From Gemmata sp. (GTDB lineage Bacteria; Planctomycetota; Planctomycetia; Gemmatales; Gemmataceae), in assembly GCA_025055115.1 (NCBI GenBank), contig JANWYJ010000029.1:124001-188000 (forward strand): a stretch of DNA of 64,000 bases. The letters run 5' to 3'. Positions 56,601 through 59,965 of the stretch are shown piece after piece. Position 1 is the stretch's first letter, and each line of letters opens with the position of its first letter. Under the pieces are notes generated by a model. It was given only the letters and a program-made list of their open reading frames with translations, did no database searches and was not told the origin of the DNA. The translations under genes were made by a program, and so were the position numbers.

Positions 56601-58274
56601 CCCGGTGTGACCCCAGTTCCCGGTATGGGCGGTGAAGAGGAAGTTCCTGTGCTACCGGCCGAACAACTCAACTCGCTTGGCTATTACCCGCCAGCCAAAG
56701 CGTTGATTATCCGCGGTACTTCGCGCTATCACTCGGCCGCATCGATCAAACTGAAGAAACGCGGCGACGGCTTTGCTCAAGCTCCCGTGAATCCCAACCT
56801 CCCCAAAGACCCCGTCGTCATCGGGCCGAACCCCTCCCCGAAACCGGCCAACCCCACCAACCCGCCCAAAGACCCCGTTGTGGTGAAAAACCCGCCCTCG
56901 GAACCACCGGCCATCGCCCCCAGCACCAAACCCACCCTCCGCGATCCCAAAGTGGACGTGGCAGCCCTGCGGAAAAAACTCGGCAACGATCCGCGGACCA
57001 TGTGGCATCAAGCCATCGACTGGACTGTCGATGACCCGGGGCTAATTCTGGCCAGTGTGGAATTCCTCATGGAATTCGACGAACCCCAGGCGGCGGCTGA
57101 AGTTCTCAAGGGCAACCTGCGCAAAGGTCTGGCGACCGACCCATGGGTGCATGAAGCCCTCACCATCGCCCTGCAAACCGCCCAGGCCACCCCGGCGGAG
57201 ATCGAACGGGCTGCGGTTTCCGGCATGGATCTGGAACCGACAAGCGCCAAGGCCTACCTCAAAGCTGCGAGTGTAGAAGCGAAACTCAATAACCACAACC
57301 AGGCCTTCCTCTTCTGCCGTCGTGCGGCGGAATTCAGCCCCAACGACCCCACGCCCTATGCCAACGCTATGGCCTACGCTGAACACGCCACCGACGTTCA
57401 GAGTGACGCGGTCATGTGGGCCGCCAATAACCTGCTCAAACGTGATTGGCCCAATGGCGATGGCATTGATTATCACCAGCAAGTCAAAGAACGGCTGCCG
57501 AAGCTGGAAGCCGCTCTCAGAAAAGCCGGTCAGGACACCGCGCTCTTGGGCCAGGCCATCGCCGAACAAAATCGCCGCGATCTGGTGATTGAGCTGCTCT
57601 GGCAGGGCAATGCCGATCTCGATCTGATCGTCGCGGAGCCGCCGGGGTCGGTGTGTTCGGCCCTGAACAAACGTACCACTGGCGGCGGCGTCCTCAAAGC
57701 GGATATCCTGGATCAAAACGACGACCGCTCCGAGGTGTACACGGCCGCCAGCGCCTTCAGCGGCACCTATCGCGTCAGTGTCCGGCAAGCCTTTGGTCGT
57801 GCCATCGGTGGGGCCCGGTTGAAGGTGACCAAGTTTAAGGGTACACCGCGTGAGAGTGTCGATCTGATCGATGTTCGGCTGGATGGCCCCCCCATCGAAA
57901 TTCACTTGAACGGTGGATCGCGGACCACACTGGCCGACATCACGGAAGATGTAGCACCGCGGGATTACCGCAACGAAGCCACAGGAGCAGCGCTGACCAG
58001 CGGCGTATCTGGGTTGGGCGGTGGCTTTGGTACCGCCGGCTCAGCCCTGCTGTCGCCCACCACCAGCAGTGGCGGACCGCCGTTACCCCTGGTGGCCCCA
58101 CCCACCGAAATGCGCGTGGCCGGAATCGCTCCCAACACCGCGGATCTCCGCGCCACCTATAAACTCAACCCGGATCGCAAAACCTACAGTATCACAGTCA
58201 ACCCGGTCTTCGCCGGCCCTGGCGAGGTCCAATTGCCCAAAGTCCCTCTGCTGCCCGGCGGTGAAGGACGCTAG
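53661..58274 (+). CDS. Giant exported VWA protein with STN-like, Gly/Gln/Phe-repeat and DUF2135-like domains
   Basis: A 1537-residue secreted or membrane-anchored protein. After a hydrophobic N-terminal segment (about 8-28) comes a von Willebrand A domain (about 93-280) with a DxTxS MIDAS (ILVDTTASQAG). A charged coiled coil spans about 497-633. A secretin/TonB short N-terminal (STN)-like domain lies at about 743-840 (MNINEIPLFELLSQLSAKYN, LGNFLDIVLLSMGA). A Gly/Gln/Phe-rich region at 877-960 repeats FGxFG. A Pro-rich linker, a helical TPR-like part (about 1110-1290) and a C-terminal DUF2135-like domain (about 1307-1420, LLWQGNADLDLIV) follow. AGGAG is 10 bases before ATG 53661. Probably a cell-surface adhesive or structural protein. 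Confidence 0.8.
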   Translation: MTLLKRLRYLPALLGVAASVAALSTTLFGDARSGSAPPVAVETPTRPNTQRLAEELAATKFSQLPVLTYQPKEGELLFAWQIRPTVAAPAPRPRDILILVDTTASQAGRPLKQARQIITSLAASLQADDRISVWTLNTPAATRALTRDFQPANSPEVQKAAVALTEIEYGAGAADLKNGLQKAVATIAPNRGRHQLILYLGDGESAFNKLTEADRLALGNQMDQKDIYFFAVPLGIKLDAYNLHGLAAITGGAVVRVMEDLNRPAQQAEFVSRLKTALDVPVVKPVKWKFGDEVGEVYPTKLPPLRADRATLVMGKLAQPAAGTVTATITGLVNGQEVAFNFSQPLPAPTVEHYFLNLMFAQWREAPHKDAPAMLQADRALALANTQVNLYREEFLTQAVWAVSAKRYDEAEKLYDAALKIAPGDREATTGKALLAQMKAGKVTLEDLAKKIKQKTGAVKLDGGTIREILQEPGAPVQPEPQPGVNPPPAAQDLLKEAAARRRVEEERYKVLVEATIRRATQLLRSDPDAAYQDLKRQRDEILAYDGIGNDARRQMVADLEAKMREVFVKGAEIKRQADAERQAIARTKQRINEFDRQEEANARDQNRINQFRQLMQEARYELAYQEAQVMIQEKVSRGLPVPPTATASYIIGQSATQLREWKELVRLREDRFLLTMLQVEKSHIPYPDEPPVHFPPAAVWRELTGLRREAYLNSNLGPTPSRSQIELRSILENTEVQLKDDMNINEIPLFELLSQLSAKYNVTFVIMEEYFKKDDINIREARPKLAATQLRGLKLGNFLDIVLLSMGATYIVRPEYIEITTFDRRLEEKVTRVFPVEDLVIPIPMAVNQATLFQNLFFQNQTLAIFGAASLFGGGLQNIGGQFGFGQFGFGAPQFGGGIPGQQFGQFGNPGPFGNNAAQFGIQGTVNLGFGGGFTGFTGGQLGQFGNLGGQFGIQGGDQSQLLLQLIFETVAKGEWANLPGVTPVPGMGGEEEVPVLPAEQLNSLGYYPPAKALIIRGTSRYHSAASIKLKKRGDGFAQAPVNPNLPKDPVVIGPNPSPKPANPTNPPKDPVVVKNPPSEPPAIAPSTKPTLRDPKVDVAALRKKLGNDPRTMWHQAIDWTVDDPGLILASVEFLMEFDEPQAAAEVLKGNLRKGLATDPWVHEALTIALQTAQATPAEIERAAVSGMDLEPTSAKAYLKAASVEAKLNNHNQAFLFCRRAAEFSPNDPTPYANAMAYAEHATDVQSDAVMWAANNLLKRDWPNGDGIDYHQQVKERLPKLEAALRKAGQDTALLGQAIAEQNRRDLVIELLWQGNADLDLIVAEPPGSVCSALNKRTTGGGVLKADILDQNDDRSEVYTAASAFSGTYRVSVRQAFGRAIGGARLKVTKFKGTPRESVDLIDVRLDGPPIEIHLNGGSRTTLADITEDVAPRDYRNEATGAALTSGVSGLGGGFGTAGSALLSPTTSSGGPPLPLVAPPTEMRVAGIAPNTADLRATYKLNPDRKTYSITVNPVFAGPGEVQLPKVPLLPGGEGR

Positions 58275-58309
58275 AATGATGCGAATCACCTACCATCTGC
58301 GGTGAACCT

Positions 58310-58346
58310 CCAGCCCGGCGAGGATGTCTTCTCCTCGTCGGGCTGG
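58310..58346 (+). terminator. Rho-independent terminator of the VWA gene
   Basis: A 15-bp stem (CCAGCCCGGCGAGGA with its complement, one G-T pair) and 7-base loop, followed by TGTGCTTTT. It lies 35 bases after the VWA stop and upstream of hflX. Confidence 0.85.
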
Positions 58347-58379
58347 TGTGCTTTTCAATTGTCCTAGGAGGAACCAGCG

Positions 58380-59738
58380 ATCAGTAAAGCATTCGATACG
58401 CCGCGTGATGATCTGTCGGTCGTCAGTGAACGGGCGATTCTTGTGAGTGTGGCCCTGCCCGAACGGCAGTGGCTCAACGAAGCCGATCCCTGTGATGAGA
58501 TTCGCGGCCTGGCAGAAACCGCCGGAGCCTGTGTCGTCGGTGAGCTAACGCAAAAACGCCACGATATTCAGCTCGCTACTTATATCGGTGCCGGCAAACT
58601 GGCCGAACTTCAACAACTGGTGCAGGCTTGCGATGCCGATGTAGTGATCTTCGATAACGATCTGTCGCCGGCCCAGGCCCGCAACCTGGAAAAGGCGATC
58701 GGGGTGAAGGTTCTCGATCGCAGCGAGTTGATCCTGGACATTTTCGCTACCCGCGCACGCACGGCCGAAGCCAAATTGCAAGTCGAACTGGCCCAACTCG
58801 AATACTCCCTGCCACGCCTCAAACAGATGTGGACGCACCTGTCCCGGCAAAAAGGTGGCGGCATCGGCCTGCGCGGACCGGGCGAAACCCAGCTCGAAAC
58901 CGACCGTCGCCTCGTCAGCAATCGCATTCGCGACCTCAAACACAAACTCGAAGAGGTTTTGGCCCGCAAAGAACGCGAAGTCAAAAGCCGCAGCGAGGAA
59001 CACACGGTTTCCCTCGTCGGCTATACCAACGCCGGCAAGTCGCAGTTGATGAACACCCTCACCAAAGCCGGGGTTTTGGTGAAAAACCAGCTTTTCTCCA
59101 CGCTCGACACCCGCACGCGGCAATGGCATATCCGCGATTGGGGGCGTGTGCTGTTGTCAGATACCGTCGGCTTCATCCGTGATCTGCCGCACCATCTGGT
59201 GGCGTCGTTCAAAGCCACGTTGTCGGAAGCCCGGCACGCCAAACTGCTTCTGCATGTGGTTGATGCCAGCAGCCCCCAAGCCGAAGACCATATTCGCGCG
59301 GTCAACAGCGTCCTCCAAGAACTCGGCTGTGCCGATAAACCCACCCTGCTTGTTCTCAATAAAATCGACAGAATCACCGATCGCTCACAATTGACTCTCC
59401 TGGAAGCTCACCACCCGCAGGCGATCGCGATCAGCGGCCTGACCGGCGAAGGCATCGACCGGCTGGAAGACGCGGTGATGGAAACACTCGCCGCCGAATT
59501 CGCAGACGCCGAAGTGGTGACCCACGCCGGCAATGGCCGGGTGCTGGCCTTCCTCAATGCCCACGCCGAAGTTTACCGTCAAGAATTCCACGACGAAGCC
59601 AACGAAGTGGTCATCCGCTGCCATATTCCCAAGCATCTGTTGCACCATATCGCCGGTCCGACCGTCCATGTCCGTTTCGTGACCGCCGACGGTTCGCCAC
59701 CGGTACCCGGGCCAACACCTTACGCCGCGATGCGATAG
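58380..59738 (+). CDS. hflX: GTPase HflX, apparent ATC start
   Basis: A 452-codon ribosome-associated GTPase that splits stalled or hibernating ribosomes. It has the N-terminal HflX domain (TYIGAGKLAELQQLV, FDNDLSPAQARNLE), the GxGE region GGGIGLRGPGETQLETDRR, and the G1 motif GYTNAGKS (214-221), then DTVGF (G3) and NKID (G4). The first standard start is GTG 58443, giving 431 residues, but it has no good ribosome site and cuts into the N-terminus. A perfect AGGAGG at 58366-58371 is followed after 8 bases by ATC AGT AAA GCA TTC in frame, exactly where I expect the family's ATG-SK. I therefore place the start there; GTG 58443 remains possible. Confidence 0.85.
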   Translation: MSKAFDTPRDDLSVVSERAILVSVALPERQWLNEADPCDEIRGLAETAGACVVGELTQKRHDIQLATYIGAGKLAELQQLVQACDADVVIFDNDLSPAQARNLEKAIGVKVLDRSELILDIFATRARTAEAKLQVELAQLEYSLPRLKQMWTHLSRQKGGGIGLRGPGETQLETDRRLVSNRIRDLKHKLEEVLARKEREVKSRSEEHTVSLVGYTNAGKSQLMNTLTKAGVLVKNQLFSTLDTRTRQWHIRDWGRVLLSDTVGFIRDLPHHLVASFKATLSEARHAKLLLHVVDASSPQAEDHIRAVNSVLQELGCADKPTLLVLNKIDRITDRSQLTLLEAHHPQAIAISGLTGEGIDRLEDAVMETLAAEFADAEVVTHAGNGRVLAFLNAHAEVYRQEFHDEANEVVIRCHIPKHLLHHIAGPTVHVRFVTADGSPPVPGPTPYAAMR

Positions 59739-59857: not shown

Positions 59858-59965
59858 TGGAAACGGTTATGTGGATGGTTCAGCAACGATCGGTGGTCGC
59901 GGCGTCATAGCCAGCGCGAACAACGCGAGTGGAAATGGTTATGTGGATGGTTCAGCAACGATCGG
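59858..59965 (+). repeat. 36-bp repeat pair, period 72, the second copy covering a gene start
   Basis: Copies at 59858-59893 and 59930-59965 differ at one base. The second contains the start codons of the TPR-like gene; the first reads the same codons and reaches a stop after about 13, so it is an aborted copy of the gene's beginning. Confidence 0.9.

Follow-up and report, generated by a model that had tools for sequence, protein, structure and literature searches.

A conserved AUC codon very probably starts translation of HflX in Gemmata and related Gemmataceae

A probable AUC start codon for hflX

The hflX gene of Gemmata and related Gemmataceae is very probably translated from an AUC codon that follows a strong Shine-Dalgarno (SD) sequence by 8 nt. 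We studied this gene in a 64,000-nt stretch of DNA (the window) that comes from contig C22 of an assembly of 4.9 Mb in 100 contigs and whose genome has Gemmata and other Gemmataceae as its nearest named relatives. The start is indicated by a codon that is conserved among relatives, by an SD sequence at working distance, and by coding constraint that begins at the ATC. To our knowledge, very few bacterial genes keep a start outside ATG, GTG and TTG, and such starts are invisible to gene callers. The hflX case, fixed across much of the Gemmataceae alongside infC, lengthens the short list of conserved non-canonical starts and suggests that the N-termini of Gemmataceae HflX are likely misannotated. 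A survey of 61,358 ancestral AUG starts reconstructed a single switch to AUU (PMC5622118). In the open literature we found no report of an hflX with an AUC or AUU start or of this Gemmata start codon; conserved non-canonical starts as such are already known, and as far as we found hflX has apparently not been described as an example before.

The identity of the gene product is clear. It matches the GTPase HflX model TIGR03156 over its full length with 461.6 bits, passing the equivalog cut-off of 216.75, and is hit by the domain models PF13167, PF16360, PF01926 and PF19275, with the N, middle and G domains in order. Its closest solved structure is E. coli HflX (PDB 5ady; E 7.9e-96), and with the whole-length match covering domains N, M, G and C the Gemmata member is unusual in its start codon only. 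The layout of the locus in the window is as follows:

58365 to 58367, forward strand: in-frame TAG four codons 5' of the ATC, barring any start farther upstream
58366 to 58371, forward strand: SD sequence AGGAGG, overlapping the in-frame stop; an SD at an aligned spacing of 5 to 9 nt is found in all 33 relatives
58372 to 58379, forward strand: spacer AACCAGCG, 8 nt from AGGAGG to ATC
58380 to 58382, forward strand: putative AUC start codon of hflX
58380 to 59738, forward strand: hflX coding sequence from ATC to TAG (59736-59738), 452 codons plus stop, matching TIGR03156 and 5ady
58383 to 58433, forward strand: N-terminal leader SKAFDTPRDDLSVVSER, conserved and under protein-level selection, judging by codon-position differences in ten relatives
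58443 to 58445, forward strand: GTG, the first canonical start codon in frame, read as an internal Val codon in the first strand AILVSVALP and not as a start

The arrangement that the initial annotation had described, AGGAGG followed after 8 bases by an ATC in frame with HflX, was confirmed at these positions. So was its remark that no ATG precedes the GTG at 58443, and in fact GTG and TTG are absent as well from the frame between the TAG and that codon. The motif of a perfect SD followed by ATH is by itself at chance level, with four occurrences of AGGAGG-N5-9-ATH in the window against 3.85 expected, and its significance comes from conservation. Predicted mRNA structure at the start site is no more stable than that of shuffled sequences (z 0.14).

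Conservation and coding constraint begin at the ATC

We compared HflX from 59 genomes, 30 of them fetched as loci, together with 80 loci of a second collection, giving 94 distinct sequences. At the place of the start codon, 32 distinct hflX genes carry ATC and one carries ATT, all 33 belonging to a single Gemmataceae clade, and the codon is kept in every one of them although the N-terminus of HflX is otherwise variable. The proposal of the initial annotation that hflX starts at this ATC thereby gains strong support, and the peptide that it had likened to the family N-terminus, SKAFDTPRDDLSV, is the true one within Gemmataceae. Its suggestion to align orthologues likewise bore out the codon: ATC recurs across numerous independent assemblies from this genus and family, which rules out an error of sequencing, base-calling or assembly.

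The SD sequence is conserved along with the codon. A match of at least 4 nt at an aligned spacing of 5 to 9 nt precedes the codon in 33 of 33 sequences, compared to 14% of internal codons and 16% of internal Ile codons, and a match of at least 5 nt precedes it in 24 of 33, compared to 4-5% of internal codons. In 13 of the 33, the window and 12 further sequences, the frame from the upstream stop to the ATC or ATT is free of ATG, GTG and TTG. Where sequence on both sides could be aligned, in ten close relatives with alignable leaders, the 13 codons before the ATC differ pairwise at codon positions 1, 2 and 3 by 0.26, 0.21 and 0.19, and the 13 codons after it by 0.043, 0.015 and 0.205. This profile switches at the ATC, so that constraint at the protein level starts there.

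These data bear on two other placements of the start, both of which we rejected on codon-position constraint, indels and non-conservation. Translation could begin at a downstream canonical codon, with the stretch led by ATC left untranslated; in the window this would be the GTG at 58443, which as the first canonical start in frame is what automatic gene callers would pick. We regard this as very improbable, since the stretch before the GTG is conserved as protein, with its differences falling in third positions, and no conserved SD stands ahead of the GTG, which is not kept as a start codon among relatives. A start there would also cut into the alignment with E. coli HflX, which runs from residue 8 of the latter, and would drop AILV from its first segment. 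Among relatives the next canonical codon varies in place from +3 to +76 codons; it lies 50 codons in for L016 and L076, and L015 has none within the 80 codons scanned, so that starting at such distant codons would cost part of the conserved domain in these three sequences.

Alternatively, the start might lie at a canonical codon upstream, which would make the ATC an ordinary conserved Ile codon. Several relatives do show an ATG in frame 12 codons upstream, and about 10 of the 33 have a GTG or ATG at codon -2 relative to the ATC that could serve. The former, however, falls in a TACAAT-like box that L007, L008 and L009 carry out of frame, while the latter stands just 2 nt from the SD, and other relatives have CCA, ATA, CTG, ACG, AAT or CAC in its place. 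Third positions show no excess of differences upstream of the ATC, and with the window's TAG four codons upstream and no canonical codon in between, as likewise in the 12 other relatives, there is hardly any chance that this account holds. Ribosomes might also reach the hflX frame by a programmed frameshift in an open frame farther upstream, stimulated by AGGAGG much as SD-like sequences stimulate known frameshifts. This is extremely unlikely because no long open frame crosses the site in the window, and subclades do not share a conserved upstream sequence.

A single origin within Gemmataceae

In a tree built from the HflX core with the start region excluded, the sequences with ATC or ATT form one clade that accounts for the trait by one change (SH-aLRT 91), with zero reversals among its 33 rows. 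Sister Gemmatales and other Planctomycetes start hflX with GTG, ATG or TTG, and outside the ATC clade the starts of the phylum are mostly GTG rather than ATG, as judged by start calls that beyond Gemmataceae are automatic and rough. The phylum thus seems habitually to use a weak start (GTG), and the Gemmataceae clade stands one step beyond. One further Gemmataceae hflX, L092, has no ATG, GTG or TTG near the N-terminus and shows AGAGGAG followed by CTG AAT AAC ACC, making a CTG start possible in this sequence.

infC and the rarity of non-canonical starts

The infC gene of the window genome (L056) begins with ATC CCA CCG after GGAG, and in most relatives examined infC starts with ATC or ATT. Two other genes of the ribosome cycle are without the trait, frr starting with ATG and hpf with GTG. 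As a base rate, we took 398 non-overlapping gene pairs with clear codon-type conservation from syntenic stretches of the window genome and the relative G017, a sample that covers part of the genome only and in which infC was placed deliberately. Of these pairs, 34 were flagged and read by hand, leaving only hflX and infC as genes whose coding clearly opens without a canonical start, and hflX as the sole unprompted case.

Possible control by IF3

The initial annotation had suggested that a ribosome-splitting GTPase with a weak start could be autoregulated by initiation stringency. Stringency control is plausible, helped by the ATC of infC in the same genome, but "autoregulated" is probably the wrong word: start-codon selection is a task of IF3 and is not a known role of HflX. 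We infer that control by IF3 would be a better reading than autoregulation. The AUC starts of hflX and infC in the same genomes suggest that both may be held in check by IF3, though the infC codon is only suggestive as a sign that hflX is repressed in this way.

The reading that we favour is that AUC initiation of hflX is repressed by IF3 and that IF3 and HflX are set by one stringency signal. Initiator fMet-tRNA would mispair with AUC at the third position, and IF3 would destabilise the mismatched initiation complex, so that HflX output should be low and go up when IF3 is scarce relative to 30S subunits. A shortage of the anti-association factor would in this manner raise the splitting factor. 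IF3 is indeed known as an anti-association factor and HflX as a splitting factor for stalled 70S ribosomes (PMC9067457), and a shared signal would make sense if one keeps apart the subunits that the other splits. That HflX output is sensitive to IF3 appears, on balance, slightly favoured. More tentatively, Gemmataceae might possess a small IF3-stringency regulon in which HflX and IF3, linked via their AUC or AUU starts, form a homeostatic circuit for the subunit pool, HflX rising together with IF3 whenever IF3 falls short of free 30S. We know of no other lineage with such a circuit of HflX and IF3. The hflX/infC pair makes it testable whether start-codon stringency acts as a signal that sets the ribosomal subunit pool.

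Known systems offer several parallels. Like hflX, infC combines a strong SD with a lineage-conserved AUC or AUU start, is found in the window genome and encodes a factor that keeps ribosomal subunits apart, but infC feeds back on its own product whereas control of hflX would act in trans. Such control in trans has a precedent in sigR of Streptomyces (GTC start), which IF3 represses as it does infC (ATT/ATC) and whose SD is also unusually strong (PMC5472188). The sigR gene further resembles hflX in its lineage-wide non-canonical start, its extended SD and its misannotation by gene callers; it differs in codon, phylum and gene, and IF3 control was shown by experiment for sigR, while for hflX we infer it from sigR and from the infC starts of E. 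coli (ATT) and Streptomyces (ATC). In E. coli, the AUU start of pcnB limits a protein that is harmful in excess; it shares the non-canonical AUH start with hflX but is an unrelated gene.

It is also conceivable, if rather unlikely in our judgement, that the AUC merely fixes a low and constant level of HflX with no role for IF3, or that it is a near-neutral relic kept by a compensating strong SD. E. coli can do without HflX under normal growth (PMC9067457), which would fit either version, as would the mostly GTG starts of other HflX in the phylum, where a weak start is the rule. Against this, a single base change would turn the ATC into ATG, yet ATC is kept in 32 of 33 sequences over deep divergence and none of the 33 has switched to ATG, GTG or TTG at this codon, and the trait is common only to infC among some 400 genes. 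Repression by IF3 remains the account of the AUC start that we prefer.

The hflX leader and neighbouring observations

The intergenic region upstream of the SD carries one prominent structure:

58310 to 58346, forward strand: terminator-like hairpin between the upstream gene and hflX, with a T-rich tail to 58355

This hairpin is strong (15 pairs, 11 of them G-C), begins 36 nt past the upstream gene and lies directly before the hflX SD. It persists in the homologous locus of G017 (L002), where the inner stem differs by paired changes. A TAGAAT box stands at 58272-58277; if it were a promoter, the hairpin would fall inside the hflX leader, and attenuation is possible there in the window's subclade. 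A riboswitch-like reading was rejected: the 3' arm of the hairpin allows anti-SD pairing in the window, but this pairing is lost in L002, a close relative. The main Gemmata subclade (L003-L012, L018) conserves a promoter-like TTACAAT box about 40 nt ahead of the hflX start, which the subclade of the window does not share.

The gene that follows hflX carries at its start (59866-59960) a repeat of about 30 bases, GGTTATGTGGATGGTTCAGCAACGATCGG, with the two copies 63 nt apart; in G017 this gene is broken up. Elsewhere in the window genome, a TGA at L176:16139-16141 (G000:C70, ~76094-76096) interrupts a frame resembling formylmethanofuran dehydrogenase subunit B (GVIDSHTSL*HGPTEIAAQ); its place is conserved between the window genome and G017, and it reads like a selenocysteine codon.
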